Part shown: positions 14,601 through 39,400 of the stretch, one piece after another
Layout of the letters: the number at the start of each line of letters is the position of its first letter
How positions within the stretch are numbered: position 1 is the stretch's first letter
Source: Styela clava
Taxonomy: Eukaryota > Chordata > Ascidiacea > Stolidobranchia > Styelidae
Assembly: GCF_964204865.1 (NCBI RefSeq)
Contig: NC_135257.1
Coordinates: forward strand, 7,276,151 to 7,340,150
Reading direction: 5' to 3'
DNA length: 64,000 bases
Translations under genes and position numbers: made by a program
The notes under the pieces: model-generated
What the model saw: only the letters and a program-made list of their open reading frames with translations
Told to the model about the DNA's origin: nothing
Database searches by the model: none

Positions 14601-17600
14601 ACACTTACCATCAATGCATATGGTAATAGTATGGTAACAACTACGTAACTGATTCCGTGATATCCGAGTTGTTCAAGTACTGAATCGCCTTCTGCTGGTC
14701 GCATTGTAATGACGTGTACGAGAAGAGTAGGTTGGAATTCATAATCAAACCACGCCGGAAAGGCAGCTGTGTTTCAAAAAACGCAATGTGTTCGATAATA
14801 ATGTTTACGTGGACTATATTAGTCCATGATGGCTGATAAAATAATGTTTTGGATAATCCGGGCCTCGTGCACTACCGCAGCATTCGGTGTTTAATAATTT
14901 TAACCAGAAAGAGGTATTTTAGTAACTTTGACAGTGAAAATACAGTGACAGTGTAATTTAAGCAGGTATAGTTTTCCTTTTTTTAGTAGGTATTAAATAG
15001 ATCTGAATAAGGTTTGGTGAAATTTAATTTTCTCTCGTAAACGGCAGTCGTTCACCTTCAGAGCAAATGATTAGTACAACATGATATACCTAAACTAAAG
15101 AAATAAAAAAAATGACTATAATAAGTATCAACCATGCAGAGAATATACATACCGTATTACCTCGAAAATAAGACCCAGCCTGAATTTTAACAATGATTTT
15201 AATATGGGCCTTCACCTTAAAATATAACCTAGTCAATAGTTCGGATTTTTTTTGGCCTAGTCGATAGCAATAAATCTCTCTACACGTTTTAAAGGATTGG
15301 TCATTATTGAATAATCCACGTTTAGCAGCTTTATTAAATGAAACGTGTTGTTTATAAGTAAACGAATTTCGGTTTTCATATTTTGTATTTTTGAAAATCT
15401 CGTAATTCTCTACTTTGTAATTTTGTTTTTGATAAATGAAAATAAAAGACATCCCCCGAAAATAAGCCCTAGTGTTATTTTTCGTATGTGTATCCTATTT
15501 TCCTTATTTTAGTTATCTTAAAAGTTCTGGGTGTTAGCCAAGTGAATATCCCCCTGCACATAGATTTCAGTCCTTTCACACAACTTGATGTAAATTGGGC
15601 GAACAAAATTAGTTACCTTAATATTGGTACACATACTTCTGGAGCGCCAAAAATTGAAATAAGTCCTATTTTCGGGGAAACACGGTACATTCATGAATAT
15701 TCAGAGAATATATTATTAATAAATGTTTTATTTGAACTTGTACTTGCCTGGTATAAAAACGAAGGATAGAGATATAATCCATACCAGTAGAAGAGTTAAG
15801 CAAATACTACGTGTTTTTCTTGTTTGATGCCAAAACGGCCACCTGAGAGCGATAAAGCGTTCGAAACTGAGGAACAGCAGATGGAGTATCGTTGCCTATA
15901 GATTGTATATACACATGTATCGCCTAATCTAATACATAATGTTACGTGTTTGTCGTGTCGTGGAGTATAAATAAGATGATGGGACTGTGTGGAACTTGAA
16001 AGATGTAATTGTTGATGGAAGGAGTCCCTGGCTATTTTTTTTTTATATTTTAAATTCTCTCTCTGTAATCTCGTTTCTTCCCCGAATTTACCTGCTTACA
16101 TAATTCACAGACATAACTTCATATGACATTCGGTAAAATCATTTGGTATTTCTTTTTACCCATATTTTTAAACATTGCTCACATGTTAAAATACACAAAA
16201 AAAATGAAAATTACTGGTGCTTTAATAAACTAATAATGAACACAAATCGTTAATAGTTACCTGTAGGGATATCATGATGAAAGATCCAGAGACTATTGCT
16301 TTAATAGAATTTCTGTCATCTAGTATGTAATCAACAACTTCACGTTCGGTTTTATATCTCATCCATAGCATATTAGGGATTGTAGTACAAAGCATCACAA
16401 TTCCACTGAGCAAATCAGCAAGCGCTAAGGATACTAAAATGAAATTTAGAAATAATACAAATGAAAATGATGAAAGTATGATTTTACATGCGTTTCAAAT
16501 TTGAGAATATCACCACCCGGGAAGAACATGTCGAATTCAAGTCGCTTGCCATCACAACTTATAAAAAGCAATCATTCCAATGTAGCCTATGTGCCAAAAT
16601 AAGTCTGAAAATTACAAAATTTCAGACGCGGTGTTTTCAATATATTTTTTATATGTTCTCTCGATTTATTCACGATAACACAGCAAAATATGAGCCCACT
16701 TTCAAAATGGCGAGGAGATAGACCAGGGGTGGCCAACCTGCTTTCGACCGCGATCGAGTAAAATCTTCAAAATAGATCGCGATCGATTGATCGATAATAA
16801 TGTCCTACACAAAAACGAATGGGCACTGAAAGTGCAAATAACTGTAAGCACACAAGCATACAAAAAATTCGAAAAATTGACAGAAAATTTGTATTTTTTA
16901 TAATCCATTTAAGTCGATTTGAATATTTAATTGTACCCGGAGTAAATGTTTCATTATTTATTTAAGATTTATTTAAATCATACAATTCAGATAAAAGACG
17001 TGCCTAATTTTTAGTCGTAAGCGTTGACAAAAGGCCTCAGTCGTAAGTGTTGAAAGAAACCTTGCCAAGTATAATCCAAACAGCGAAAATAAATATTCTC
17101 AAACCATAAATGTTACATGACTGGTCAAACTTCAGTATCTAATTTACAATTTCCTCCAAACGCGATTCTTCGCTTGCTCAAAATTAGGACAAATTGGGCA
17201 TTTTGATGCCACTGATACCATTGCGAATAAAATTCATCACACTCCTCTTGGAGTGAGACAATATTGCGGAATTTATTGTAGCATCGTTTGTCCGCCCAGA
17301 CCAGGGTTACCAGATCCCAGTGATGAACAAAAGACAAATCACGACAGAAAAAAGCCAACAATTTTAACAAGTACAAAAACCTCATGATTTGACAGATTTG
17401 ACACTCATAGCACAACAGTCGATTTGCACAGTTTTTACTCAAATTATTCAACCATGTGCTGCTTGCACAGTCTACTGATAAAGGGTTTTAGCCTAGATAA
17501 TCACGTCATTTGCGGGAATTTTGATTACCGCAACCAAACTAAATATCCTCGGAAGGCAAAACGACAATTACTGAATTAGAGCATACAACCATTTTTTGAA

Positions 17601-18586
17601 ACATAAATAAAAACAGACAAATAACACTGTAACGCGCAAAACTATGAAAACGAAGCCTGCTTGAACATCTGTCTGAGCGGCTGGAAAAACTGCAATTGTT
17701 ATGTCATTCTAAGTGATTCAATAGTCTTGCTGCACACTAACACAGATATATTTCTGTAACGTTTCGTCTGACCAAGGTCAGACTTCCTCTAGCATACATA
17801 GTTCAATCTAATCGATGGCACATGTTATGTCATTGTTGGCTTATTTTTGATTGGTTGGGGTTAAGGGAAAATGCATGTAAAGTACTGTATTCTACCTGTC
17901 GCAAAGCACACAACTGGTTCGAGGCAATTTTTGGGTCTATTTTAATAAAATTCACTCACTCAGACGCGATCGACTGCTCGAGTCGGGGCGATCGACCGCT
18001 CGATCGCGATCGACGTGTTGGCCACCCACTGATATAGACATATAGTCATCGCATGAACATCTATTGCCGCATCATATTGATCAATAACAGTCCATAAAAT
18101 TGTCATAACAACTATATATATATATGTAATCTAGATAGATACCCTACCTTTGATGTAATTATATTGAGTGCGCAACTCCCGTGTTTTCCACACAACTACC
18201 GGCAGCAGGATGTTCGACAATATGATCGCCAATGACATCAAGATAATCACCAAACAGAATGAAATAAAACCTCTGCGAATTTCACAGTTTGATAGTGATG
18301 CCTTTGCATCGTACATATAATATCGAAGGTCGCTACATTCGCTTTCATTGCTGTAAACTGCGAATCCACATAATGCTAGGATTCTGATTCCAGGTGCGCG
18401 TGTAGTATAGTTGAGCTCTTGTGTTGAATTCGTAACTGCGTCAGTGGTTTGCTGCGCTGTGGAGTTGTAGAATTGCTCTGTTTCTCCCTGCACGTCCTGA
18501 GCATTGGCGTTGTAAAGAGTGTTCGCAATTATCGATGTATAAATTACGAAATTTAACATCTCGTTTGTTTTATTGTACTTTTTCAT
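11657..18586 (-). CDS. class A (rhodopsin-like) GPCR, copy B
   Basis: Seven exons on the minus strand join in frame to 458 aa: 18148-18586, 16261-16433, 15748-15895, 14609-14766, 13706-13925, 13090-13192, 11657-11792 (phases 1,0,1,0,1,2). The N-terminus has a signal-peptide-like segment (MLNFVIYTSIIANTLYNANA), a Thr/Asn-rich stretch with N-glycosylation sites, and three Cys before TM1. Visible hallmarks: TM1 SNILLP, TM2 LALADLLSG, TM3 end ERFIAL, TM6 with Pro (TLLPF), and TM7 TNSFMNAIIYSFRDKRFRKA, followed by a short tail with Cys. ICL3 is Lys/Arg-rich. Cys3.25 and an ECL2 Cys are absent. Intron 3 uses a GC donor (CAG|GCAAGT at 15747/15746). The ligand is unknown. It is a paralogue of the gene at 33478-40485. 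Earlier methionine candidates were not needed: ATG 18586 starts the signal-like region. Confidence 0.88.
12319..12705 (-). repeat. interspersed repeat copy in GPCR B intron 6
   Basis: The segment is a reverse copy of the family at 22200, 23530 and 26510. It shares aatttcaaagcaattggtc (reverse of 12510-12540) and a Gln/Asn-codon-like (TTG/TTA)n run. The plus-strand right part ends in cgaataaatgattgattgattg, a short tail repeat as seen at the 3' end of non-LTR retroelements; whether that tail belongs to the same element is unclear. Confidence 0.4.
13499..13580 (-). repeat. short fragment of the same interspersed repeat
   Basis: The plus strand reads gacctatggatcgttttgtt followed by T/G-rich triplets, the reverse of aacaaaacgatccattggtc at about 23790-23810. 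It lies in GPCR B intron 5. Confidence 0.4.
15150..15688. mobile_element. MITE with CGAAAATAAG-type inverted ends
   Basis: Left end accgtattacctcgaaaata, right end the inverse of ttcggggaaacacggta. Between about 15160 and 15480 it aligns by eye with 33010-33340, sharing for example tctactttgtaattttgttt. An extra block of roughly 170 bp near the right end includes one isolated end (cttctggagcgcc) of the other MITE family, so the copy is composite. It sits in GPCR B intron 3-4. Confidence 0.55.
16724..18031. mobile_element. hAT-like element, 1.3 kb, in GPCR B intron 1
   Basis: The ends are CAGGGGTGGCCAACCTGC and the inverse ending TTGGCCACCCACTG, both continuing into GATCGCGATCGA-rich subterminal parts. 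Flanks agatagac (16716-16723) and atatagac (18032-18039) match at 7 of 8 bases. Internal ORFs, the longest at 17125-17451 (-), are not recognisable as transposase. An isolated left end of the same family is at 25750-25818. Confidence 0.75.
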
Positions 18587-20158: not shown

Positions 20159-21400
20159 GAGAATTTTGCAAAAAAGTTTTTTACTCACCGCTTAGTTATG
20201 AACCAGACATCTTCATATGATATCAAACTAGCCATGCATATTGTTGTACTAAATTCACTCTATCATGATATAGTTTCGTTACAAAGATTATCTCATTTCA
20301 CATTATGAATCTCTTCCGTTGAGTGACGTGGTGAAATCATTTGATTCACATTGTCCAAGCGGCCGCGCCGAAACGGATGTGACAAAACACCCCCTTCCTG
20401 TCTCTCAAATGTGTTTTGCCATATTAGCTCGAAAATATACATATGTATGTAATGTTTCAACTGCAGTTTCAAGTGAAAATATTCGACGCATTGTCATTAA
20501 TTATAGGAGCAACTTGGCATTTGGTGCGAGTTCTGAAATTGTACGGATTCTACGGTAGCTTTTCGCATATTTGTTGACGTTTGTCTAACTCTAGGACTCT
20601 GTAAGCCCTAGGGCATTTTATGAGGAAAATTCTGAAATTCTATAGATTCTGAAACCACAACAGCTTTTTGCATATTTGTTGATGTTTGTCAGGAGTAGAC
20701 CCCAGGGCCTTTAATGAGGAAAATACCCAGAGGTTGAATAAAAATACAGTAACAAGCACACACAGCGTGACCTTACTATATATATTTCTTGGCTATATTA
20801 TGCTATGATACTATATTCGACATTTCAATGTCGTGTAATACCATTTATCTTTTTTTTTTCAAATGTAAATAGTCATCCCTAACAAATATAACAACATCTG
20901 TTCCCTGTTTGGAAACTCGGTCAGATTCGATAATCCAAAATTAGTCTCGCGACGAACTATTTCTAAATGCCTGTGATTGCTTTTATAGCATCGGGGATTT
21001 TCAGTGATATGTGGCTCAATTAAGTCAATTTACATGAATACCCACTAGTTTCATGGCACTCTCAATCTATACTAAAAATCTAAATGAAAATAAATATATA
21101 TCTTGTTCTGCATATTTTAGTTGTGGTCGTCATACACCACTATGATCCTATCTCAGTAAAAAAATTTCATCGCATTATGCATATTTGAGTGTTGGTCACA
21201 CTTTAGTTATTATCATCATTTCATGTTTGATGAATTTGAATTTTTATTCGAATGTAATACTATACAAAATACGATTTTATTTTCAATAAGCCCTGTTTTA
21301 TCGCTCGCCCGCAGTTGCCACAACTGCGATAAGGCGCATTTTCCCATGTTTATCGGAATTGCCAATCTCGGAACTATAATAAAAATACTCTGTTTGTTAA
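20159..21400. other. non-coding, with an imperfect tandem duplication
   Basis: At about 20536-20640 and 20633-20745 two diverged copies of a roughly 100-bp unit follow each other. They share catatttgttgacgtttgtc / catatttgttgatgtttgtc and a later ccctagggcattttatgagg / ccccagggcctttaatgagg. ORFs at 20319-20558 and 21223-21459 have no splice or homology support. Confidence 0.5.
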
Positions 21401-21406
21401 TTTATT
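21401..21406 (-). promoter_or_regulatory. candidate polyadenylation signal of the micro-exon gene
   Basis: AATAAA on the minus strand about 320 bases beyond the stop at 21725-21727. Confidence 0.25.
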
Positions 21407-21724
21407 TGACGGTATGTATGATTGTGCGATGGTTTACACCACCTTTAGATCGAGATTAAAATTTGTTTTTCCATTAATGAGTTAAACACTCATTGAATAC
21501 AATACTTTGGGTTGAAAAAAGTTATTTTCAAACTGAGAAATATATAAATATGACAAAAAGATGATTAATTGGAAAAATTAAATTAGAATGGTTGACGATT
21601 AACTCTATCAATAAATATGGTATGATAAGTAATGATGATCGGAAGAAAATGAAATACTGTAAAATGCAATAAATTTGCTAATCTTTCAATCTTGCCATTC
21701 ATTATCTTCAATTGTCCAGGGTGG

Positions 21725-23361
21725 TCAAGCTCGCATATTAGGTCCCATTCCACTATCTGTGATTAAATGAACAAGTATAAATTTCAATCTCTATTCTTTT
21801 TAATACTTTGGGATAACACCTAATTAGCTAGAGAGATAATTGACGAAATTGATTTCTTCAATTAGATTTCACTGCCCAAATATATTCAGACGTATAATCA
21901 CACAATTACTATTGAAATTACTCACCCATAATAACTATCTTTGGGTTTTCGATTGGTTCTAAAACCAAAAGTAGAAACTTTAAAAAAATATCAATATAAC
22001 ATAAATTTGATTCATGAATAAGAGTATTACTGTAAAATATTAGTACGCGAAATTTCATAGCGTTTTGCTTAGGGTTTATTGGATGCAAAAAATATGTATA
22101 GGTATATATGTCATACTTTAATAGCTCTTTTTAAATTAGCATGTTACGATTTCGCGGGGCCATTTCTCAAATGAGCGGGGTTATTGCTAAGAACGCAACT
22201 GTCGATCGTCGTCTATTTATATATACGAAAGATCGATGCTCAAATATATGGACACGAAAGCCAAGTAGACTACAGGTAACTCAGTATTCATGACTACGCG
22301 TGACCACCAGATTGCAAACACGGAAACGGCCACAAGGTGCGCGATTCTTAATTTTCATGACAACATGGCACAATAAAACGAATACCTTGGATCCCACAGA
22401 AATTTTTGTAATAAAAATAGTACTAGCATTCTAGCCAAGAATAACATCTTTAACTACTCAAAATTTCAAAGCAATTGGTCCAGCAGTTAACAAAAAAGCG
22501 ATTTTTCATAACAACAATACAAAGAGTTCTGACAACAACAACAACAACAACAACAACATAATAACAAAACAATATACAGGTACACTTCGTCTCCAAAAAT
22601 AATAACAAGCACAAGTTGGATATATCTTGACAAGTGAGGCATATTACAGGCTTTTAGTTTCATATATGCTGAAATTCTGTTTGATATAAACATGATAACG
22701 GGAATTCGCTTTGATCCATTTCATTTTACGAAAGATTTGAACATGTCGTTTTAGTTTTCGTTCTATTCATGTCATGTTGCATTACCTCGGGTTATTTTCC
22801 TTAATGTTAAAAGTATTTTGTTTTACCGAGATTTATACTTAAAGTATTTTAAATATGATAACGATAGACGTACCTGACGCGCGAAATCCATTAAATAAAT
22901 AAATATTAACTAAGTGATGTTATAATAATATAGCTCAATGACTGATCTCAAAATCAGAGGAAACAAGTGCGATGCACCTAACAGAATTCATTTTTTAATA
23001 ATAATTTATATTTTTTCGATGTGGTCGCAAGTAGGGCTAGGCATTTCGAATCGAATAGTTATTTATTCGAAACGGTTCGGATAAGAATTTTGAATCTTCG
23101 CCAAACGTCTTGTTAAATTCCTCATATTTTTATCGAAGCCGTGTATTTACAATGCATTTCTGATATATGACGCTTTTCTTTCTAGTGAGTTATTAATGAA
23201 CCATGTGTCTTATTGCAATTAAAAGCTCAGGCTATTTATTAGGTTGAAAATACTGTCTGATGATCGCAATAGTATTGCAATTTAAAAATATGAATAAAAC
23301 TTGATTACAATTTTTAAATACTCACTGCTTGATCCCTGAGTGTGTTGGCTGTTTACTGAAC
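21725..23361 (-). CDS. micro-exon gene, exons 15-17: C-terminus
   Basis: 23326-23361 codes G-SVNSQHTQGSS (36 nt); 21926-21958 codes K-PIENPKIVIM (33 nt); 21725-21756 codes D-SGMGPNMRA then TGA. Phases continue the series, and the last exon starts with the same split Asp and a GP dipeptide. These exons are less repetitive, so their support rests on phase and splice sites alone. Confidence 0.65.
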
Positions 23362-26300
23362 CTGAAATAATACAGTATATGTTGATAAAATTGTCCAGAA
23401 ACTATTTGAAAAAATACAATCCAATACCTATAGCTAAACGAGACAGAAGTAAATTATCGACTAGTGTTGCAAATTTGTATATGATTGCCGAATTAGTTTC
23501 TAAGTGGTAAGATTTAAGACATATTCATATTTACAACAAGAGAGCGCTGCTCAAATATATGGACACGAAATCCAAAACAAAGTTTCGCGTATCGTCGCGT
23601 CAAATTGGAAACGGTCTTCATGCTTGGTGGATTAAAAAATGTGTTACCGTGAAAAATAAAAATAGAGCGAAATATCAGATCTTGTAGGATTCATAGAAAA
23701 TTCAAGAATAAATAAATGTAATAGCCTTCTAGCGAATGTAGACGGTAACAACAACAAGAAAAAGGAGAATAACAACAACAACATAATAACAAAACGATCC
23801 ATTGGTCCATTACGGGCTCAGTAATATTTTCTGATAACAATAGTTTTGAAGGCTAGATATCCGCTTTTTCAAATATCATGTTCAATAGATGTATCGCGCA
23901 CTCAAAGCGTGAAAAATGGGGGAACTGATAGAAAAGTATCTTTATTCTGACATTGATATTGTGAAATGAAAGCGATTCTTACCTAGAGTCTCGTCTCCCT
24001 GTGGAATGACACCTCCATAAAAAACGGGATCTGTAATATAAATATTCAATCCACTTTAATACTTAAAAAAGATAATACAATTTAAAACAAATTCTTGGAT
24101 AACGGTTGAATTTTATATGTATTCGAAAATTCTTCAAGTCAAAGTCAAAGCCATCTATTTTGTTCTATACGAATTTATTTACTATTCTGTCAAACTCTTT
24201 CCATTTTTGCGCCAATTAATGAGGATCACAAGATCATATCAATGTAACGCAATATTTATTCTCAAAATGTTGAAAATTATTTTTGATACATGATCTGAAT
24301 TTCGTTGTGCACTGTATTTATACGGTATATCTTTACTTAAGATAAAACGCGGTCGAATATTGAATTTTAACATTTTCCATTTATTATTTTAAAATTGATA
24401 TGAGCTGTATCAGTATTCGTTTTCTCTGTACATGTAACATTTATACTAGGCATTTATTTAGTGCGCCAGGTACAAGTACCTGGGTGAAACTGCTGGCCGC
24501 ACCCTCATTTAACACAGGCTTTCTAGTAGTTGCACGCACAAAAATTTTGTTTGTTGATCTTATGACATGTGTTGTTCACTTCGCACAAGCTAACTGTTAG
24601 GGCATTGTAACGTCATGGGCACAGATAATAAATTGGAGGCTTTGCAAAGACGGAATTGGAATTTCTCGAACGTACAAGAATAAACTAAATTAATAACTCG
24701 TTTCGCGAGTCGACCACTTTCAAAAATTGGCACTGCTCCGCGGGCCGAACAGTTTTTCCTTGTGGGTCGCATTGGGCTCGCGGGCCACAGTTTGCACACC
24801 CCCGAATTGTAAAGAATATAGGCATAGACATATAATGAAATATTTAAATTTCATTCTAATTTATATTCCCGAACATCGCATTCAAATATAAATCTATTGC
24901 TTCGCTTCAACATTGAATTTCAGACTTTTAAATTTTACGGCTGTAACTCGACTCTCACGCTAATACACTTTAGATAACATTGGGATTATCATATACTCAC
25001 CACTCAATGTAGCTTCGCCTTGTGGGTAGTTCGATAAAAATTGAGGGTTCGGCGGACCTTGGAAAGTATGAATCGAGGAGATGAAATAGGAATAAAAGAA
25101 AGAATAGAATAAGTTCAGGCTAAAATTTGACTTACTTAAGCTCGCATCTCCTTGAGGAACATTACCTCCGTCTGTAAAAAAATTACTTTGTATTAAAATA
25201 TACTCACTCATACGTTTGGTTTAAACGATTGCACGAAGGAACTGAAATTGTTTTTGTCTCTTAATTGCGATCGATTTTTATGAGGGTTAAAGCTCATAAA
25301 GAATTTCCTAAATTGGACGTAGCCTACTCCAAATTGGACTACCACTAAATACGAGGTACTCTATTTCCGAATTACTCTATTTCCCTACTCACCTAAAGTA
25401 ACTGCTCCCGAGTAGTATCCTGGATCGTCTGAATGAAATGAATAAAAACCTCAGAAGATCTGATTAAAGTTCAATTTACTAATAGCGACTAGATCACTAG
25501 AAGAAACGGACTATGCTTTTAATATTCAAGTTCTTATCATTACTGTGGACGAGTTGTAAAATGCTAGAAATCAACTGAATATTGCACGTACCAATAGAGA
25601 AGACGAATGCTGATTCTGGCGAATAGGCAGGCTACTGCTCATACTTAAATTCAAACAAAAGCGGACAGAATTTATATCTGGTTCATCGCCATTTCTGTTT
25701 TATCGCCATTTTCAGTACTGATTCGTTTTTTTTAGATGACCTCATTACCGAACAGTCGATCGCGAGCTATTTTGAAGATTGCGGTAGATCGCGGTCTAAA
25801 GCAGGTTGGCCACTCCTGAATTTTATTCTATAGTAGTTAGGCCATAACTTCAGGGGCGTAAAGCCAAGAAAAAATTCAGAGAAATTGAAGGATATTTGTG
25901 ATTATAAAGCCCTATTTTTACGCCATTAAAGAAATAAAATTGCTCACCCAATGTCACCGAAGGGCCAGAGTATCCATCTGAAATATACAAAATAGGCAAA
26001 TATAGAAAATTAGTATCAAAAATATACCAAAGCATTACGAAAACTAGAGCGTGCTAAAAATAGTGGGAGGTTCTGCTATTAATTTTGTCACAGAAATATT
26101 CATACGCAAATTAGAATTGTGATCTAAAAGAATTATCATTCTTACCCACGATACAATTTTATCAAGCGAAGGGACTCAATGTCTATAATTGTCAACTCAG
26201 TTAAAAAGAAAAATGTCCATATTTTTGGTCGCCCATGCGCTGTGCAAAATTGTGTTAATAAAATAAAAATAATCTTTCTTACTTACCCAGTGTACCTGCA

Positions 26301-29300
26301 GGGCCGTCATCTAAATAAACATATATCAATTAGTGAATATCAATGTAAATGAACTTACTTCAAGATTATATTGAAACCTCCACACACTCGTTCCATGAAA
26401 TAGACTGGAATTCCAGTCACAAAAAATAGTCAAATACAACAAATTTTCCCAATTCTAAGTTGTAACTCCCAGTATATGAATGTGTTACCAAAATAGAGAT
26501 GTCTGTCAAACTAGAACTAGAGTACAATGCTCAAATATGTGGACACGAACGTCAAAACAAAGTAGTATAGGCATCCAATCTTTTTTAGAATCGGTACGCT
26601 ACTGCAGTCTCCCAGACTTCGACTGACCACCTGAACGCAACGATCGCGAACGCGGCACCGTCACAAGGTAGACAAGTTTTAACTTTGATGGTGTCATCAC
26701 GCACAAAAAAAAAGAATTCTATAGAGTCCACAGGAATTTTTGAAATAAATAAAGGTATATAATAGACTCCCAGCAACAACAACAATCTTCAACAGCTGAA
26801 AATTTCAAAGGAATTGTTCCAGCAGTTGAAAAGAAAAGAGATTATTTCAAAACAAGAACAAGTAGAAAATGAATACTAACAAGAACAACATAATACAATA
26901 ATAATCTTACCTAGCGTAACTGCAGGCCCGTCATCTGAATAAACATATGTTAATTAGTAATGTAAATAAACTTATATCAACAAACGTGAACTGAGTAACA
27001 GACAAAAACAGGAAAAACATATCACATAGACGAGCCAAATACTGCACAACTATATCAAACTTTGATTTGTGGCTCCTAATAAATGGAATGTTTTCTTATA
27101 GTTTATTATCTTTTTTATTCTGCGGAAAGTAATTACTATTACGCTATATTGTGACAACTTGAGGTATTTTTTTATTTTTTCATAAATTGTTTCTGTTTTG
27201 CATATGGAGTATATAGATTGATTCGCATTACAGTAATGCAATACTCCTTCAGATTATTCACCCACGATTGTTGCAGAATTTTTACAATGTAATTGTTAAA
27301 CTGGTAATACTGCTTCGAAATAGCTTAAAATTTCTTTTAAACTCGAGAAAAGGATAGAAGAAGTCAAATTGCTCAGCAAAACCTTTCATCTACTATTTGC
27401 TATTAGGTTAGGTGCCAGGCATGAAAATAGTTGAATGGAACAGCCAGTTTAATTTTTCACATGCATGAGTGCGTTGTTTAGTGAAGAAATTTTATACGTG
27501 TAACGTGATGCTGGTTTAACAGAAAAACATTACTCACCTAAAGTCACTGAAGGACCAAAGTATCCATCTGAAATGAACATATATATATAGTAAGTAATCA
27601 GTTGGTATTAAAAATATGCTAAAGAAAATGAACAGTGTGATTAGCAGAGTAAGTCAACACGTATAACCATTTTGCGACAGAGACCTCTCAGGAAAGGAGA
27701 CAATGACGCAATTTGAGTAAATTGAAGAGGTTTCATACATATCGAGCAATATTGATAGAATTGAAAAAACACCTTTTCCTAATTACTCACCTAACGTCGC
27801 TGAAGGGCCGAAGTTTCCATCTGAAAAATGTTTAATTTGTTCATGTCAAATGATATAACAATGCATCATTACACCCAGTCGTGGTGATACAAAAAAGTAG
27901 GAGTTTCTTTCATAGAACGAACTACCACAATATCATAGTATTATTCATACACAATTTAGAATTGTGACCTAAAATGTATAGTATTCTTACATCAGGCAAC
28001 TATCTATTTTATGCAGTGGAAGATCCTATTGTCCATTTTTCGAGTTGAAATGTGAGAGAAGTGTCGTTATCCTGGGTCGTGTTATGTAATATTTAAAATT
28101 GTGATATTTGTGACAATCTCAAATACTTACCTGATACAACTACAGGTCCGGAATATTCATCTGGAAAATGTATATCAATCATCAATATATGAGTAACTTA
28201 TATTAAAAATATGTCATAATTCATTCACACCCGATCCGCGAAATGGACGAAGGAAATTATCACCACAAGGATAATGCAAATACTATAAAACTAGATCCAA
28301 CTTCGAGTTGTGGCTCCAAATATATGAAAGTCACTTATTTAGAGTATACTATATTATGTTTTATGCCATAGAAGCCCCTATCCACCAGGCTATATTGAGT
28401 CGGTGTTGGAGGACTATATCAGGATTTCCCATCAATTGTTTCTGGAATGCACATTACTTAAAAAGATTAAATTGAAGTTTAGATAATTGCTCACCTAGTG
28501 TTACTGCGGGGCCGTAGTATCCGTCTAAAAAATGTATATAAAATAATTTATTTAAAACAACTGACACATCCTATTACAATGAATTTGGGGACCAAGAGAT
28601 AATGGGATATCTGCCATAAAACTGCCTGAATAACATAAAACTGTAAGAAATTTAATACAGTAACCGAAGCATATAATATGCCTTATCAAAGTGTGCTATG
28701 TATTTTATGCAGCGAGGCCACAATTACACATCTTGTACAAAGTTTGGGACGAGAAAAGTGCTGGAATTTCTGATCTACAATGTTAATACTTTAATAATTC
28801 ACTTTATAAATCAAATTACCAAAATATACTAAAACTTATTCACCTTCAATGATACCGCAGCTATTTTATTTTGCATTAAAAACCGTAACAAAACCGCAAA
28901 ACTGTAGGAAACATAGATTTATTTATATGATATAATCTACCTAAACTTGCTTTGGGAGTCTGTGATCTTGACATCAGATGAGACAAAATAATTGCTGAAT
29001 AGAAAAGAAAAACAATAATAGATAATGTACAAAATAATTGTAGAAATGGAAATCTTTTAAAATAAAACTTTTTCGAATAACATGAAAGTTTCAAGTTTTT
29101 ATTGAATTGAGATTTATAACTAAAAATATCGAGATATACTGAAAAATGCTTCGATTTCACTTAGCCAATGGCAATTTTCAATCTAAAATACGGGAACACC
29201 GCAATAATGCGATTATAGTTACCCAACAGCAAAGCTTTCATAGTCTCTGGATTGTCGGGCGTATCTGCAAAAAAAAAGATTTTACCATGAACGAATAATT

Positions 29301-30814
29301 TCTTATATATACTGTTTTGACATATACCAATGAATATTGATCTACTCGATTTTCAAGTATTTAAGACAATTAAAATATTCATAAAATTTCATTAATTCAG
29401 ATCAACATATTGATAACGATCACAAGAATTAAAAAACGAAAGTAAAATTTTGTTGTTCAATTTGGTCGGTTTTGTTAAAAGCACGAGTCAAATAAACAAA
29501 AAAAGTCAATATGTATGGTTGGAGAAACTGTTGGTTCTATAATATGCAATTGCGTCACTTTATGACGTCACTGTTGAACAATTTGTTACTATTTGTAAGC
29601 GATAAATGGAGTAGTAGAATACAATTTCGATGATATTGCAAACTTATCAAAACTGGTTAACCTCAAATGAACTACTGAAAAATGTTTTAAAAATTATACC
29701 TTTAACACATTTGATAACCACGTTACCAACGCACCATGAACATTTTCTTGCCAAACATTGCATCGGCGTGACCATTTCTCCTTTTGCACAGTCATCAAGG
29801 ACGGTCGGTTTTCTTTTACAGGCAAGACCTTAATATTAAGTGTTTTTAATTGCTATGTCATAATAACCTTTATTATGTCAGCGTTTCGGGTTATGTTAAA
29901 AATTTCTCGCACACATCGAACACGTGTATTTAAAAATACAAATTAAATTCTTCGAAAATTGCCTAAAAAGTTGGAAGCAACAACTTTATCAATAATTTTT
30001 ACGAATTGGTTTCATCTTGTTTAGCATTATTCTATTTTCATCTTAATTTGCTTTCTTCCAATTGTGGAAATTCAGTATTGAACAAGTTTATTCTCACGTT
30101 GATTAAAAGTTAACACAAATTCTACATATTGGCATGGAGAGCATTTTTCTAGTATCGAATCATAAAGGCTGTATATTATTGTTCAAGAGCTCTGCGTTTA
30201 CTTTCAATGCATTTCGATCGAGCATTGGAACAGTAGTAACATTGTTTTAATATATATAGCCTGGGCCTGCTGTTTGTGTGGCGTCGTGTTCTATCTTTTC
30301 TAATAGTTGGCAACAAGCAATTCGCTAAAAATATGAGAAAATATGTAGAACAATCCCAATGTCAAAAAATGATTGAAATTTAGCAATGCGTTCTCATGTA
30401 GTAAATGAAAATAATCTTTTTTTGCCATTACCACGGTTTCATATAATAATATGTTCTAGCTTTATATAAAAATAACCAATCAAATACACTACTTTTTTGC
30501 TAATTCATTTCACACAGTCACAAAGATGGGTCTAACATACATGAAAATACAGATGAACTGAATCTTGCCCCTAACTTTTAATGAATTTACCATTTGGAAG
30601 CTTACAACAGAATGTTTATGTCCTGTTTGACAAAGTCCGAAATATTTTATGTATATCTAAGTCTAATCAGTCTAAATATATGGGATTGTGAAATAATATT
30701 AAATTTTTCTGTTTACAGATTAAGCCCATAACCTAAAATAAAAAATATTTTCTTACTATTAGCTGATACACATCCGGCAATGCTGACTAGAGCGACAAAA
30801 ACGAGAATTTTCAT
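21725..30814 (-). CDS. micro-exon gene for a secreted repeat protein
   Basis: Seventeen exons join without a frame break into 209 codons plus stop (630 nt): 30757-30814, 29223-29264, 28941-28994, 28495-28524, 28131-28160, 27791-27820, 27538-27567, 26911-26934, 26287-26310, 25948-25977, 25393-25428, 25136-25171, 25001-25057, 23983-24030, 23326-23361, 21926-21958, 21725-21756. Every intron is phase 1; all have GT-AG ends, most with GTGAGT or GTAAGT donors. Apart from a signal peptide, the protein is Gly/Pro/Asp-rich, acidic and free of Cys, with two repeat types: DGY(F/Y/S)GP(S/A)VTL and PQG(D/E)xxL. The repeated codons, constant phase and donor quality argue against chance. I know no matching family; it resembles parasite micro-exon genes in architecture only. 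Function is unknown; secretion is inferred. Confidence 0.8.
22200..22600 (+). repeat. interspersed repeat in micro-exon gene intron 15
   Basis: Contains caaatatatggacacgaaag, a middle aaatttcaaagcaattggtc, and an (ACA)n run ending aacataataacaaaac. The same order of blocks is seen at 23530-23810 and 26510-26910. No coding frame; a SINE-like or non-autonomous element is likely but unproved. Confidence 0.55.
23530..23810 (+). repeat. interspersed repeat, second copy in the micro-exon gene
   Basis: Shows ctcaaatatatggacacgaa at its left and aacaacataataacaaaacg near the right, with a shortened middle relative to 22200-22600. Confidence 0.5.
23983..25171 (-). repeat. three micro-exons coding the PQG(D/E)xxL repeat
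   Basis: 25136-25171 (36 nt) codes DGGNVPQGDASL; 25001-25057 (57 nt) codes SPPNPQFLSNYPQGEATLS; 23983-24030 (48 nt) codes DPVFYGGVIPQGDETL. All share PQG, an acidic residue and a final Leu at the donor. The first exon ends A|GTAAGT and the next begins GT, forming Ser instead of Asp; the frame is kept. Confidence 0.78.
24478..24805. mobile_element. probable hAT-like fragment
   Basis: The right part (gggccacagtttgcacaccc) and the inverse-related left part (ctgggtgaaactgctggccg) resemble the ends of many hAT elements. I found no matching target duplication, so the exact borders are uncertain. Located in micro-exon gene intron 13. Confidence 0.4.
25592..25609 (-). CDS. possible extra 18-nt micro-exon
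   Basis: Between micro-exons 25948 and 25393, gccagaatcag|CA TTC GTC TTC TCT ATT G|GTACGT would add AFVFSI in the correct 1-1 phase. It does not match the repeat consensus, so it could be coincidence. Confidence 0.25.
25750..25818. mobile_element. isolated end of the 16724-type hAT element
   Basis: The reverse strand reads aggagtggccaacctgcttt then a GATCGC-rich part with cttcaaaatag, like the left end at 16724-16790. The other end is missing. Confidence 0.5.
26510..26910 (+). repeat. interspersed repeat, third copy in the micro-exon gene
   Basis: Contains ctcaaatatgtggacacgaa, gaccacctgaacgcaacgat, aatttcaaaggaattgttcc and a degraded aacaagaacaacataataca. It ends right next to micro-exon 26911-26934. 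Confidence 0.5.
27262..27288 (-). pseudogene. decayed micro-exon with lost acceptor
   Basis: A 27-nt segment in correct phase codes D-CKNSATIV and ends GTG G|GTGAAT, as the live units do. The bases before it are AC instead of AG, so it should not be spliced. It sits between units 27538 and 26911. Confidence 0.45.
28844..28860 (-). pseudogene. decayed micro-exon with frame loss
   Basis: On the minus strand the words GCG GTA TCA TTG AAG|GTGAAT resemble the end of a live unit (GCA GTA ACA CTA G|GTGAGC). The only near acceptor would give 17 nt, which breaks the frame. Confidence 0.3.
28941..29264 (-). CDS. micro-exon gene, exons 2 and 3: linker
   Basis: Exon 29223-29264 (42 nt) reads N-TPDNPETMKALLL; exon 28941-28994 (54 nt) reads A-IILSHLMSRSQTPKASL. 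Exon 3 holds a hydrophobic stretch and a basic pair region (MSRSQTPK), where a propeptide could be processed, and its final SL matches the VTL ends of the repeats that follow. The acceptors are tttgcag and ttctattcag. Confidence 0.7.
30757..30814 (-). CDS. micro-exon gene, exon 1: signal peptide
   Basis: ATG at 30814 opens MKILVFVALVSIAGCVSAN, a short basic start, a hydrophobic core and a small-residue cleavage site (VSA), then A|GTAAGA. One exon thus carries almost exactly the signal peptide, typical of secreted-protein genes. Confidence 0.82.
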
Positions 30815-30877
30815 TTTGAATTTTCTAAGAAGTCGTATATCCGTTCCTTAGTACAAATTGTATTCCCAAACTGTTTG

Positions 30878-30893
30878 TTTCGTAGCTACGAAA
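30878..30893. promoter_or_regulatory. 16-bp perfect palindrome upstream of the micro-exon gene
   Basis: TTTCGTAGCTACGAAA is a perfect inverted repeat 64 bases upstream of the start codon at 30814. It could be a dimeric factor site; no specific factor is claimed. Confidence 0.25.
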
Positions 30894-33009
30894 TATCACA
30901 ATCAGATTGTATCCTACAATGGTTTATGTAGTTTTATCGCCAAATTAATTTTTACTCAAAAAAAAAAAAACGCGATTGTTATCTTTCGGTATGAAGTCAG
31001 CAGTGATAATTGTAAACCCCGAAGGCAATGAATACATTTTATCTAGACGACGAAGTTTACTTCATGTGATGATTTAGATTCTATCGGAAGTATAAAGCAA
31101 TCTAGGTTCATGGATTGGTAATAATTTCCGTTAAGTTGATCCATTCAGCAATTAAAGTATCAACGATATTTTTGGCGCGGGGGCATTTTTATATTCATAA
31201 CTTCAACCAGATTCACAGAGCTTACAGTAATCACAATAAGAATCAAGGACGTTTTTACTTTCTTTACTTGATTGCTAACTTTAGTGCAATATCTTCTTCT
31301 TTCGTAATAGATGACAGCAAGAATCGCTTGATGAAATATGCCATATAAGAGCTGGCTATGATGTCACAATTTTACAAACGGACAGGTTTGTAATTTCGAA
31401 AAATAGTCAAGTATAAAAATGACACATATAATTGGTGAGTGATGACGATTTGGTGACGCGTATCTTTAAAACCAGGTAATAATTTCTGTAGATGAAAACT
31501 TATTAAAATTACAATTTAGGAGAAAATTTTCAGTACTAAATTCTAAATAAATAAATCGATGATTTTATGGTAATTTTAAGTGTAAGCCTGTTTTTAGATG
31601 GAATAGTGGACACATCATCATGAAACCCCTTAAACGACAACGTCATTTAATTGTGAACGATTTCTGCACATTTGTTAACAAAATAACACATAGTGATTAT
31701 ATAAACTGATAACTCATTGGTCAGAACTCGAACCTAAATGGAATGAAGAATAATTCTAACATAAATATACATTGTCTGCTTTATGCTAACATCGTGATTC
31801 ATTTCATGATTTAATCACAAGCTATTATCAATTAATAAATTTTGAACGTGTTTTTTTAAACTTTTGTTTCGTTTGCTGATCTTGCATTACAACTTAACTT
31901 AGTCTATTTTTATTATATTTGTTAAAAATCATGTTCCTGTTATGAGGCACGTGAGTTCAAGTACTAAAGTATACATATACTGAAATATTTGAATGAACTT
32001 ACGAGGGGGTGTCACAGCAGTGATATTATATTCTCGCAATTGGGAAAACCATGGAGAATACTGTAAAAAATCTCCAGCAAACCTCATTGCTTTTCATGAA
32101 AATTTACTATACCCCTGACAAAGGAAAAATGCAGATAAAAGGCATCTCCACGACTCGATCATTTTTGGTTAATCTGTTCAACGAATGCCTTTATAGATGT
32201 TATTGTCTCAATCAGTACTCTAATTAATTTTTTCAAAAATAAGTTATTCAGGCATTTTTTTTACTAGCATGCGCTATGTGCATACTACTTTACATAAATC
32301 TATCGTACGTCATTCGACAAACTATCGTGGATTGACTGTGTGATGACAGTTATAAACATCATGACAATATGGTCAATCATAAGATCTCACTTCATAAGTC
32401 ATTGCACAATAGCTGATTATAAAACAGATATACCACACAACATAAAAGTCTCTGTTGTTATTTGTCAATACTTAGCTTACAGTGGAATATTACTGGGTGA
32501 TCATCATAGTTTTACAGAGGTCTCAACCAAACTTCGAGAGAATTGACTTTAGGAAGGATTTCTTTATGAGAATGAAACTTTTTGTTAAATATTTTAGTCC
32601 AAGTTTACAGTTCAAATATGAAAAGATCAGGTTTGTTTGTTTGTTGACGACCAAAAACTGTAATGACAAGATATTTTTCAAATATAAAAAAATCATCTTA
32701 TTGGAATACTGGCATATTTTATAATTAATAGCTAAATTGACTACACCTCACATGAAGCTAAAACTCACAATTTGAATACCATATTCCAATGTCCATCAAA
32801 TCTTATAAATAAACCTAGAAAAATGTTCACAACTTTTAAAACGCATTTATATATTTTATTTTATACATTTAATATATTTTCATGGTATTACTTGATGCAA
32901 ACTAGTAGGAAAAATAGAATACAGTGCCATCATCTCATGTATCCTTTGCAATATTGCCAAGTCAAAGTTATATATGTATTATATCTATAGGATGATAAAG
33001 AGCGATATA
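30894..33009. other. intergenic DNA between the micro-exon gene and GPCR A
   Basis: About 2.1 kb, AT-rich. The ORFs at 31115, 32340, 32482 and 32772 are Ile/Lys/Tyr-rich chance frames. As the two genes diverge here, both promoters should lie in this stretch, but no clear core element stands out. Confidence 0.4.
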
Positions 33010-33390: not shown

Positions 33391-33477
33391 ATACAAAACC
33401 CCATCTAGGTATATAGAATATTGAATAATAATGATAATATTTAATTTCATATCTAGACAAACCTATTATTTTGAAAT

Positions 33478-36400
33478 ATGAAAAGAAACATTTTATTGCG
33501 ATTTTCGGTGGTTATCCTGCTTACTTTTGGTTTGATCAGCCATCCTGTATCATCACTCCAGTCACGTTCAGCAAAAAGTCGAAACAAGGGTCAGAAATTC
33601 AGATCTCAGGAACCGGAGGAAATAGTTCCAAACATTGGAAGGTCTGGAATCAAACCTGTTAGAGATGTGATTTTACCATCAACTTTAACTACTACAAGAA
33701 CCCCACCGTTCAGATGGGTTGCCCCTGTAACTCCTGCTGTACCTGTTCAGTCTGAGGTAATAAGACCCATAACTGAAACCCTCATTAACCAACATATTGA
33801 AAGCAGGATTTCGATTCCAAATATACCGTCCGAAAAGGATATTCATAAGAAATCGAGGCCCACTAGCTCAACCATAAAAACAACATCAACAACAATTGAT
33901 CATGCATCAAACAATCACGAATCTGTTCCCATCAGTTTTTATTTCTGCAAAAATATTTCTGCCACCGATCCGATCCAACGACTTTGTGGGTACCCTGTAT
34001 TTTATGATGAACTGCGATGTGCCGAGCAGTTCTGTTCGGACGATCCATTATACGAATGTGAAGATGCACAAAGCAGTATGCCTTTCTTCGGATCCGTAAT
34101 AATGTTTCTTGGATTTTTCATCATAATCAGTAACTGTTTGTTACCGTATCTCGTCTACCGTGAACCTAATTTAAGAGTAACTCATAATTGGATAAAAGGT
34201 AAATACATTCTCAGTATGTCATCTTGAAAGTCTAACTTCAGTTAAGAGATATTTTTAATGTCAGCCACAATCCCAATTTAACTTGAGAATATATGTCCTA
34301 TATCGTTTTAGGTTATATATACAAAAATCAGGCTAATTCAAATTCCGAGTCTATTCTGGCTTCAAATATTTTGTCAGACTCAGGCCTTCAGAAGAGGACT
34401 ATGTATTAAAAACCTTTTTGATGCTTTATACCTATAAACACAATATATATATATTCATTTAAAGTTTCACTTGCATTTGCCGATATGCTGAACGGAATAG
34501 TGTTGGTTTGTTCAGTTCTGCCGAACATATTGTGGTTTCGTAATCTGCCAGAGAGAGAAGTTGCCTCAGAAATTGCAAAGGAAACGAACTCGGTCACTGC
34601 AGTTTTTCTTGGATCTTTATTGATTGTATCAAATCAGGTATTCTGTACACATTTATTTTCAATATTGCGAGCATAAAATAACTAGTGACTGTTCATCGTG
34701 TGTGGCTTCTATCCATTGGTGGGATTCAAAATTTCAAGAACGTTGAATTGAACTCACTAGGTTCTCTTATTAAAAAAAACACGCTTTATTTATCTACGTC
34801 ATGAATAAATGGTGACCGTACATTTGAACCTATGTGTATATCCGTGGGTTCAATCTATATGCGGGTGCTAAAACCCATGGGTTAGGGCAAGGTCTTTGGA
34901 CCAGGTGCCAAATTTTTTTCCTTATACCGACTGGCGGGCCATGTAAGTGGGACTTACATTTTATGAACAATATTTAAAGTTTTACGAAAGCGATAGTGAA
35001 AACAATAAGCCTCGTGCAAAATTAAATTTAATCGCAATCTCAACAAATTCCTTGAGCTATTTTTTATGATTAAAATTTGGCTTCAGTTTGGTTGTGGCAG
35101 CATCAGGCGGTCCAGATTGAATTACCCAACAGGCTGTATTTGGCCCACGGGCCGTAGTTTGCCCATGTCAGAGCTAGAGCTACCAAAATTTCTGGCATAT
35201 TTGGCTCCATCCACACCTGTTATAGTAAGCTTGGCGCCAGCTCTACCAAACTGTCACGGCCCGTTGCACCAAACTCCGACTGCCCAGCCCTTGTATGTCG
35301 TAAGATATTTTGACGTGACACGCTTTACATAAATCAAATACATAACTTTTGAAATAGCAAATATAACGCTAATCGTCAGCTACGGTGCACATTATTCATT
35401 AGCTGCGATCGTCTAAAGTCAAAACAACAACAAAAAACAGGAACGAGTTCGCTGATGCCAAAACATTCTAAGAACGGGTTCGTGCGAACCCATGTAAGCC
35501 CGCTGAATTCCACCACTGCTTCTATCCAAGTATGGGCCAATAATACAGTAATAGTGTATTTCATAAATAATTTTTTTAGTGTAATACAAATGAGATTCAA
35601 TTCTTAATATTTACCGAACAAAATTAAATGATAGGTAGCCAGATCAAAATAAGACAGTTCGAGTAAAAAAAGTTTTTTGTCCAAATTTTCAGCTGTTGTT
35701 TGTTTCCATCGGTGCACGTCATTATTAAACGAATTAATTAAAATAACCAACACTCACCACACGATGCAACTGTTTCACCATTATAACAAAATCCCCAGAC
35801 AATTACGTTTTAGTTGTGTCACGTTTCGCTTATTTTCTTGTTCACAATGCCATAAATAGTGTTACAGTGCATAAGTCCAGCACTGCATTCTCATTTGAAA
35901 TCTGCAGTGACGGTGAAATTCCAAGTTGTTTGAATCGGGGTAAAATCGCAACATATAGTTCTTACGAAAGTTATGGAGGCTCGATACGACTTTTATAGAT
36001 TTGAAATATTTAGTTATTCAGTATTGTTTTTTATATTTAGGGATCTCTTCTCCACCTCACGTTCCTAACTACGGAAAGACTTGTTGCAATAAATTGGCCA
36101 ATGAATCACAAAGCATTGGAACAAACAATTATATATCACGGAATAGCTGTCGTGTGGATTCTTTCAATATTTTGTTCATTCACACCAGGTAATTCTTTGA
36201 AAATGCATGGTGGCAATCAATGAAATCACAGCTATTCTACTTGAGTGTTGTCATATTAAGTCGCCCAAGTCCTAACCATGTTTTATGTTATGTTTCAGCA
36301 ATATTTCCTGATCATTTTGAATATTCCTTGGGACCGGTTGCGTTTGTAAACATGTTGACTACAAAAAATTTACCCGATGGATCTATGGGATATCATGGCG

Positions 36401-39400
36401 CGTTATATGGTGTCGTGACAATTTTATTGCCTTACTCAATTATGGTAAATACATTTGGTAATGTTCTAAAAGTAGGAAATTTTAGTGGCGATCAGCTTCC
36501 TAGACATAGTTATCCTGTTCCCGTGACCCATTTTGGGCTTGAAATAGCCTTATAGTAGGTCGGGGGAAGTCGGACCCACTAATAAGTTATTTTGAATAAC
36601 TCTTCAAATAATGTCGCAGCTACATTCGTTCTACGATTGATTCATGCACCCACCCTCCAGCTATCTTGCCACATTTGCACATTGTTGCCATAGCAACGAA
36701 TCGGAATTTACGCCCGATTTTCAGCTAAAAAAATATCGGGGTAAGTTAGACACTTTGTGGGAAAGACGGACACACACCAAAATTAACTTGATGGTGTCTA
36801 AGATTTCGGTCATAAGACTTCGGTCAACGCCTAGATGGCCCAGGATTATGTCTCTTAAATTTTTTTTAAACAGATCACTTTTCTTGCATATTAAAAAGTA
36901 TGTCCGTCGTACCCCATAAAGGACATAACAGGGCAATTTTCAAAAAAGTTTGAACAGTTTTAGGAAAACTAGAAATTTAAAATTTAGGTTGCGCTTTTTC
37001 AACTGCAATTTTTATATATTCTTTACACGGACTACCTCCAGAAGTATTTATTTTGTAATTTCTTGGCATAACCTTGGGCGTATTTTATACGCATATGAAA
37101 AAAAAAATTGGACGGGGTAAGATGAAATTTTACGCCGGGCTTAACTTCTAAGAGACCCAATATAGATATGGCGATGAGTGTGCTTTTGATCTTTGTTGTG
37201 AAAGAGTACTTAGTACCAACAAATAATTATTTATAAGTTTCGATGACGACGGCCCATTGACATTCCCAACAGACTATATTGAAAAAAATCCTCCCCCCTC
37301 CCCCACTCAAAATCCACCCTACCTCTTAAGTGACCCTGCCAACCCAAAAATGAGTACTGGCAGTTTGCTTAAGAATTTATTCGATCTAATGCAACTACTT
37401 TCAACAAATAAACAAAATAGAACCGAGTTCGCAGACTTTTCCGGCTAAAATTATTCTTCGCCACCATGGGACTCTATAATTTGACGTTTTTCTGTCCCAA
37501 CAGAAACACCCTTTCCCCAAAAGCACCGCCTTGTAAGTTGTCGAGCCTGAAATGTAAAATCTTGGTTCTGTCGTTGTTCGCATGATGTCGCTCTTTCACG
37601 CGATGCGTTTTAAGCGACGAAAAAGCGCGAGGTGTCGCTAGTAGGAAGATTTTATTTTGACTGACCATCATACCCCGGGTGTCCGAACTACCCCGACCTA
37701 CTATATACCACATTTTATCTATATCCAGCTTTAATAAATGTCCAATTTTGAAAGTTAATTGACTGTAATTCTGTCACGAATTCTTTATTTTTTTTTCCTT
37801 CTGGTATCGCGAGGCGAAAATCAAAATTACAACACGCTTTGTGCAGCAAGCCTACAATACGTAGAGGGTAGCTGGTCGTTGCTACATCCGTCTGCGCTCT
37901 TCCTCCGAGTTGTAAAACATTTCGACTCCACGACTCCGAGAAAAAAAAATAATAACAAAAACTGCTTTCAATAGATCTTTAAAAACGCTACGTAAACTTA
38001 ATACATTTCGAGTTTTTGTATCGAATACTTTGACTCCTTTTATCATCATCGATAATCTGCGAACTCCGAGAAATTCATAATTTCGACTGCGATTCCGCGA
38101 AGTTTTAAAATACGACTCCGACTTCAACGCACAGTCTTGTCTGGAATTATCACCCATGGCTAACTTTTGAATTCATAATTTTGACTGCGACTCCACAAAG
38201 TTTAAAAATACGACTCCGACTCAACAGCTCTGCCTGGAATAAATACCTGTGGCTATCTTTCCCTACCTGACGTGGGTCGGGTAACCATGCTTTTCGACAA
38301 ACGAGACGTAATCTGACGAAAACATGAGCGTAAATTTATGCTCTGATATGCCTTCCCCATGTCCACTTCCGGTCCATTACACACAATGGCAGACTCTTTC
38401 GCATTCTGGTGAATAATGATTATTATCTTTTAATTGATCATTGTAGCTATTGACATCAATTACAACAGGATTTATTGTTTGGAAGAAGTTGCGGAATTCA
38501 CCTAGAACATGTCGAGTTCCGAAAGAGCAAGATCATGCTACAAGAGGATCTTTAGAGAGTATCGTTGATTACCTACGACAGGTGCCAGAATTACATCCCG
38601 AAATAAAAGTGTTCAAAACTCTTATCATTATGATAGTGGCTTTCAGTGTCACATTGTGTAAGTTTATTTTTTCATCATTAATATTAGTTTTTATAAAACA
38701 TATATTCAATACGGGCGGCCATAATTCGAATATAATAAATGGAATAAAGATTATATATCAATATTCAAATGCTATAGATTAATTGGGGCTCCCGAAGTAT
38801 GCGAACCAAGATGGCGGACATCGGAATAAAATATGTGTACTAGGTTAGGGTTAGGCCATAATTTTAGGTATAAATACTACGGGAGGCTCTTGGCTAGTCT
38901 TAGAACTGATAATAGGACTAAAATAAGGAAAATTGGAAAAAAAATTATCGCCTAACCCTAACCTGTTACGTTCCGATGTCCGCCTTCTTGGTTCGCATAC
39001 TTCGGGAGCACCGATTAATTTACTATTGTACATGATGCAAAGTTACATTTAAATGATTTTCAGTCAAAAATATTCTAATATATAATGTTTGCTCCAACGA
39101 AACGGTGATTTATATATATGTATATTTTGGTGTTCAGAGTACATTCCCCGCTGCAATAATAGTTTAAGTAACTTTACAATCTTTAACCTTTCTTTACAAA
39201 ACAAATCTGCTTTTTGATTCTATACATTATTTTACAGTACCTGTATCCGTCATTTTGATTCTCTACAACTTGAAGAAATACTACAACTGCGATAACTATT
39301 CGCTTCCGTACACCTTAGCGTTTTATATAGGCATTTCGAACAGGTTCGTTTTTCAATATATATGATATAGGCTACGCATTTTTTTCCCTTCATTTCAATG

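Follow-up and report, generated by a model that had tools for sequence, protein, structure and literature searches.

A micro-exon gene for an apparently Styela-restricted repeat protein in the ascidian Styela clava

We analysed a stretch of 64,000 nucleotides (nt) of the genome of Styela clava, a stolidobranch ascidian (contig C9:7276151-7340150, from an assembly of 376.6 Mb in 379 contigs), called the window below, which carries at positions 21725-30814 of its minus strand a gene composed largely of micro-exons. Spliced together, its 17 exons reproduce exactly the sequence of an NCBI protein, P0001, recorded as 'uncharacterized protein LOC120346152 isoform X2 [Styela clava]', of 240 amino acids (aa). 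The coding sequence occupies 723 nt including the stop codon, within a span of 9090 nt, and is interrupted by 16 introns of 78-1367 nt, all bounded by GT-AG. Each of the 15 internal exons is a multiple of three in length, lies in phase 1-1 and starts at codon position 2. With the exception of exon 2 (129 nt), these internal exons are micro-exons of 24-57 nt, and 10 of the 14 micro-exons hold one of two short repeats. An earlier note on this DNA had proposed a minus-strand gene of 17 GT-AG-flanked, phase 1-1 exons over the same span, beginning with a signal peptide; exon count and span were matched by P0001, splice sites and phases agreed throughout, and exon 1 is signal-peptide-like by inspection. 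The tunicate host implied by the note's proposed search was also correct. The note's protein of 209 aa did not correspond to the record. Its range of 24-57 nt was correct for all internal exons but exon 2, and its rule of one peptide repeat per micro-exon held in ten of the 14.

The gene model is sound, its 17 exons being identical to the database isoform, a match that lends the splice joins indirect support. A public database already contains a prediction of the gene, under the name of an uncharacterized protein, and the gene as such is not new. LOC-type names and the 'isoform X2' label are presumably products of the NCBI automatic pipeline, which uses RNA-seq. The expectation that such a gene would be invisible to most automatic gene finders was not supported, the protein being in the NCBI records under an isoform label. 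What may be new is the architecture and the orphan status: we found no ascidian report of such a gene, and no description of either property, in the open-licence literature searched.

The exons were first rebuilt from the window alone, by scanning the minus strand for AG-exon-GT segments and checking their context. This initial rebuild joined 18 segments into an open protein of 241 aa. P0001 lacks two of them, 25615-25592 and 25428-25393, and includes 21958-21926, a 33-nt segment found in the first scan and unused in the rebuild. We rejected 25615-25592 as an exon of the gene, as it is absent from P0001 and dissimilar to the repeats. When 25428-25393 was added to P0001 as an optional exon, the protein lengthened to 252 aa. 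Exons and related candidates are given below in the order of the minus strand; all are in P0001 unless stated otherwise.

30757..30814, minus strand: exon 1, start codon and signal-peptide-like start (MKILVFVALVSIAGCVSA), the signal peptide being judged by inspection
29700..29828, minus strand: exon 2, Cys-rich domain, 129 nt, six cysteines with spacing x9, x10, x4, x2, x7; weak Trefoil match
29223..29264, minus strand: exon 3, 42 nt, TPDNPETMKALLL
28941..28994, minus strand: exon 4, 54 nt, AIILSHLMSRSQTPKASL
28495..28524, minus strand: exon 5, 30 nt, repeat DGYYGPAVTL
28131..28160, minus strand: exon 6, 30 nt, repeat DEYSGPVVVS
27791..27820, minus strand: exon 7, 30 nt, repeat DGNFGPSATL
27538..27567, minus strand: exon 8, 30 nt, repeat DGYFGPSVTL
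26911..26934, minus strand: exon 9, 24 nt, short repeat DDGPAVTL; D8 duplicate of exon 10
26287..26310, minus strand: exon 10, 24 nt, short repeat DDGPAGTL
25948..25977, minus strand: exon 11, 30 nt, repeat DGYSGPSVTL
25592..25615, minus strand: doubtful candidate, 24 nt, ESAFVFSI, probably no exon; not in P0001 and unlike the repeats
25393..25428, minus strand: optional exon, 36 nt, DDPGYYSGAVTL, repeat-like, in frame, with good splice sites; not in isoform X2, possibly used in another isoform
25136..25171, minus strand: second repeat type, 36 nt, DGGNVPQGDASL
25001..25057, minus strand: second repeat type, 57 nt, PPNPQFLSNYPQGEATLS
23983..24030, minus strand: second repeat type, 48 nt, DPVFYGGVIPQGDETL
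23326..23361, minus strand: 36-nt exon, GSVNSQHTQGSS
21926..21958, minus strand: 33-nt exon, PIENPKIVIM
21725..21756, minus strand: last coding exon, SGMGPNMRA and stop
21401..21406, minus strand: candidate polyadenylation signal AATAAA, about 320 nt past the stop; motif only, not part of P0001

Between exons 4 and 5, positions 28845-28861 look by eye as if they might be the remnant of a dead repeat copy (AVSL-like; donor GTGAAT), which was set aside as too short.

The array was compared with chance expectation over region 21400-31200. Candidates were open phase 1-1 segments of 18-60 nt with splice signals, scored with splice weights and cut-offs that were hand-set after the region had been seen. 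The minus strand gave 15 micro-exon candidates, against a mean of 0.93 and a maximum of 4 in 200 dinucleotide shuffles, and 19 pairs of similar peptides, against 0 in all 200; the plus strand of the same region gave 0 candidates by the same criteria. Of these 15, P0001 contains eleven as exons; the remaining four comprise the optional 25428-25393, the doubtful 25615-25592, a piece of exon 1 and an alternative acceptor of 23361-23326. The cut-offs fail to recover three genuine micro-exons, namely 29264-29223, 28994-28941 and 26310-26287. Elsewhere in the window, 24 overlapping strand-blocks yielded at most 3 candidates and 0 similar pairs. Likewise, 25 control loci of 10 kb (5 flanking and 20 sampled; 50 strands, all three phases) yielded a maximum of 5 candidates and 0 similar pairs. 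In its two wrong phases the focal strand yielded 2 candidates without any similar pair and 11 candidates with 3 pairs, the latter taken to be the same exons out of phase. A chance run of splice-like signals without a gene is scarcely credible in the face of the exact database match, the shuffles, the control loci, the exact joining of the exons and the substitution pattern described below, and we found no point in its support. Chance origin of the exon array is excluded.

Differences among the five 30-nt repeat exons were mainly synonymous (10 pairs summed; synonymous proportion, pS, 0.63; nonsynonymous proportion, pN, 0.19), and exons 9 and 10 are separated by 3 synonymous changes and 1 other. 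As judged from these counts, such mainly synonymous divergence is the pattern of translated sequence. Copies of the surrounding DNA were also recognized. Repeat D1 is present as four 64-nt copies around exons 11, 8, 7 and 5 (64-80% to the reference), and repeat D8 (53 nt, 87% identity) lies around exons 9 and 10. Repeat D7 comprises 58 intron nt at 79% identity with a spacing of 1845, close to the spacing of 1843 between exons 7 and 11, and repeats D5 and D11 are intron stretches with spacings of 1241 and 1249. Because several repeat exons have common intron flanks, these exons must have been duplicated together with flanking intron. Ungapped identity at 20-60 nt out from the five 30-nt exons was 0.17-0.42, which is near the level for unrelated A+T-rich DNA, a figure that insertions and deletions could equally give, so that it does not date the duplications. 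The array retains its own history in its exon and intron copies (64-87% identity), and micro-exon duplication in a growing orphan gene could be traceable across styelid ascidians.

Duplication of this kind is the basis of the main rival to a splicing-tunable protein, namely a fixed repeat protein whose small exons stem merely from tandem exon duplication, whose functional repeats are all always included and whose splicing variation is noise. Elastin- and collagen-type genes have small in-frame exons, each encoding one repeat module; unlike them, the present gene matched no such family in Pfam. A schistosome gene with tandemly repeated, repeat-encoding exons was reportedly described by Davis et al., with a different organism and a different repeat. 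The duplicated blocks of exon and intron and the purifying pattern among the repeats fit a fixed protein well, and duplicating a symmetric exon automatically gives symmetric phase. This rival accounts less readily for the isoform label and for a skipped repeat-like exon with good splice sites, neither of which implies regulated use, and we regard it as possible but on the unlikely side.

As to splicing, the codon formed at the join is free of stops in all 153 exon-to-exon junctions, adjacent or skipping, among 18 exons (those of P0001 and 25428-25393). With every internal exon symmetric (a multiple of three, phase 1-1) and no junction creating a stop, any subset of internal exons keeps the frame. 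Isoform X2 omits the repeat-like exon 25428-25393 despite its good splice sites, as variable splicing would predict.

The predicted protein was also examined for its composition. Residues 1-18 are signal-peptide-like, typical by inspection, and are followed by a head with an isoelectric point (pI) of 8.89 and a tail of 177 aa that is rich in Gly, Pro and Ser, with a pI of 4.05 and a net charge of -14. The first repeat type, DGYxGPSVTL-like, occupies seven exons (5-11), and the second, PQGDxTL-like, three later exons. When both types were sought at set cut-offs across both strands of the window, no further copy with splice sites was found. Five of the 7 DGYxGP-type repeats carry Y or F, aromatic residues that, one might conjecture, are suited to cross-linking or binding. 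A precursor cleaved into many small peptides, one per exon, would likewise place a single short repeat in each exon behind a signal-peptide-like start, but residues 64-240 of P0001 contain no basic residue pair by inspection, and we consider a precursor of this kind very improbable.

We think it probable, taking the gene as a whole, that it encodes a secreted Styela protein with a Cys-rich head, an acidic tail and a repeat number tunable by splicing. The protein would be secreted, its six cysteines would fold the head by disulfides, and the acidic Gly/Pro/Ser-rich tail would be disordered. Splicing may keep or drop single repeats in frame and so produce tails of varied length from one gene. 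The most likely role would be that of an extracellular protein of mucus, tunic or haemolymph type, with partner binding assigned to the head and with the repeat tail serving as a tunable spacer or as an arm for multivalent binding. Several observations weigh against this proposal. The predicted variation in splicing has behind it one isoform sequence, the one examined of the two members of the protein cluster that holds P0001. The substitution counts come from 30-nt exons in mutually dependent pairs, and constraint is weaker in exon 6 (pN 0.27-0.41) than in the other 30-nt repeat exons. Single-sequence structure models were poor, with a mean predicted local distance difference test score (pLDDT) of 58 for the head and 41 for the whole protein; the whole-protein model has helices in the head and no disulfide-type fold, and the poor quality of the models also weakens the claim of a disordered tail.

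The identity of the head was pursued through exon 2. Alone, this exon matched the Pfam family Trefoil (PF00088) over 42 residues at 14.5 bits (expectation value, E, 0.033), below the curated cut-off of 21, and the whole protein did so at 10.6 bits (E 0.53). As a control, 10 Cys-preserving shuffles were searched; 0 of 10 matched Trefoil and 3 of 10 hit a family other than Trefoil, with E values of 0.0056 and 0.056 for two of these. Since shuffles reach comparable values with other families, the Trefoil E of 0.033 is by itself no evidence, and the trefoil label for exon 2 was rejected on this ground and on the sub-cut-off score. Kinship with ferredoxins was rejected as well: 24 PDB sequence matches to exon 2 were all ferredoxins, the best at E 0.05, and were taken as a coincidence of C-x4-C-x2-C in a 42-aa stretch. 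A trefoil-like head would be a weak lead, nothing more.

This lead nevertheless corresponds to a distinct alternative, compatible with the secreted, splicing-tunable protein proposed above, in which exon 2 would encode a P-type trefoil domain that has diverged, and the product would be a trefoil peptide associated with mucus and extended by a repeat tail. The cysteine spacing of exon 2 is partly like that of P-type trefoil peptides: the first spacing of x9 and the VTP-x-QC stretch resemble them, but exon 2 has CSWC where those peptides have two adjacent cysteines, and its final spacing is x7. Likewise, the 14.5-bit match was not reproduced by any shuffle, but it lies under the cut-off, and shuffles did match other families. 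The low-confidence head model shows a short helix and then two strands, as a trefoil relative might, yet a PDB fold search gave no match at E <= 10, and the PDB sequence matches pointed to ferredoxins only. The long repeat tail is a further departure from P-type trefoil peptides. On balance we hold a trefoil relative to be doubtful.

Relatives of the protein were sought by several routes. Searched against about 5.8 billion proteins, the whole protein had P0001 as its sole match at E <= 1, and residues 1-76 (3 candidates) and 77-220 (326 candidates), searched separately, had P0001 as their sole match at E <= 10. These searches rely on shared 5-residue words, which a fast-evolving or distant relative can escape. 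NCBIfam, a library for prokaryotes, returned 0 families, and an Rfam scan of the window 0 matches. The earlier statement that no described family with these repeats was known stood, in that none was found in the protein and family searches made. In the animal's own genome, all 5 of 5 matches fell inside this gene; that search under-detects short exons, just five of the gene's own exons having been recovered, and the claim of a single copy therefore rests mainly on exon 2. P0001 is best read from these searches as an orphan protein restricted to Styela.

Two known systems resemble the gene in layout. In PMC10526429, schistosome micro-exon genes (MEGs) are described as having a signal peptide, many short exons that are mostly multiples of three (6-81 bp, mostly 15 bp), introns of 0.1-5 kb and secreted products; 35 such genes are given for S. 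mansoni, and the few MEG proteins studied are disordered. The Styela gene is similar in its micro-exons (14 of 15 internal exons), in the lengths of all 15 in multiples of three and in its introns of 78-1367 nt. It differs in exon size, 24-57 nt (internal exons of at most 36 nt account for 303 of the 723 coding nt), and in being one gene found in a free-living chordate. MEG exon skipping is described as giving protein variants; here phase and junctions permit skipping, and one exon is skipped in X2. No kinship with MEG proteins appeared in the whole-protein (E <= 1) or two-region (E <= 10) searches, which a distant relative can escape and in which P0001 was the sole match. The earlier comparison with schistosome genes as an analogue in structure only was supported.

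In naming these flatworm genes as the nearest analogue the note did not mention the bicycle genes of aphids, which are at least as close in layout. According to PMC9168663, bicycle genes average about 17 exons and have small internal exons, of which nearly all begin at codon position 2; they form large families, for which homologues without a clear motif are also noted. The present gene matches this account in its 17 exons and in the codon position of all 15 internal exons; unlike the bicycle genes so described, it was found once. A pattern check of P0001 for the bicycle CYC motif (C-x-Y-C or CYC) found it absent, and the protein searches made gave no sequence relation to bicycle genes. By this comparison the gene is like MEGs and bicycle genes in layout, and membership in either is not claimed.

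The secreted micro-exon genes found in the literature consulted are those of schistosomes and aphids, and both are tied to the host interface (PMC10526429, PMC9168663). A clear example from a chordate that is a free-living filter feeder would point to ordinary exon duplication as a possible source of the layout, which would then be no mark of parasitism. A bolder proposal is a convergence on parasite effectors, in which one locus, through symmetric repeat-exon skipping, supplies changing secreted acidic repeat proteins at the body surface for defence, self-marking or adhesion; we offer this as a speculation of low probability.

A dispersed element is present three times in the introns, near 22221-22574, 23532-23799 and 26512-26906. 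Further pieces of it occur in the window at 12439-12628, 13511-13577 and 43887-43992 and in 7 of 25 other loci, some matching via an AAC-rich end. One copy ends right beside exon 9; we provisionally label the element 'SINE-like' (short interspersed element).

The gene is flanked by two membrane-protein-like sets of open reading frames (ORFs) in opposite orientation, 14546-18586 (minus strand) and 33475-38782 (plus strand). These sets include paralogues, 16222-16494 (minus strand) and 34422-34676 (plus strand) being identical at 32 of 68 residues. By eye the flanking ORFs resemble 7-transmembrane receptors; 0 of the 5 tested in Pfam reached the cut-off. Beyond them, a TRAF-type gene at 42896-52522 (minus strand) carries zf-TRAF domains at 48354-48632 and 48700-48918 and a MATH domain at 42896-43216, all above the Pfam cut-offs.

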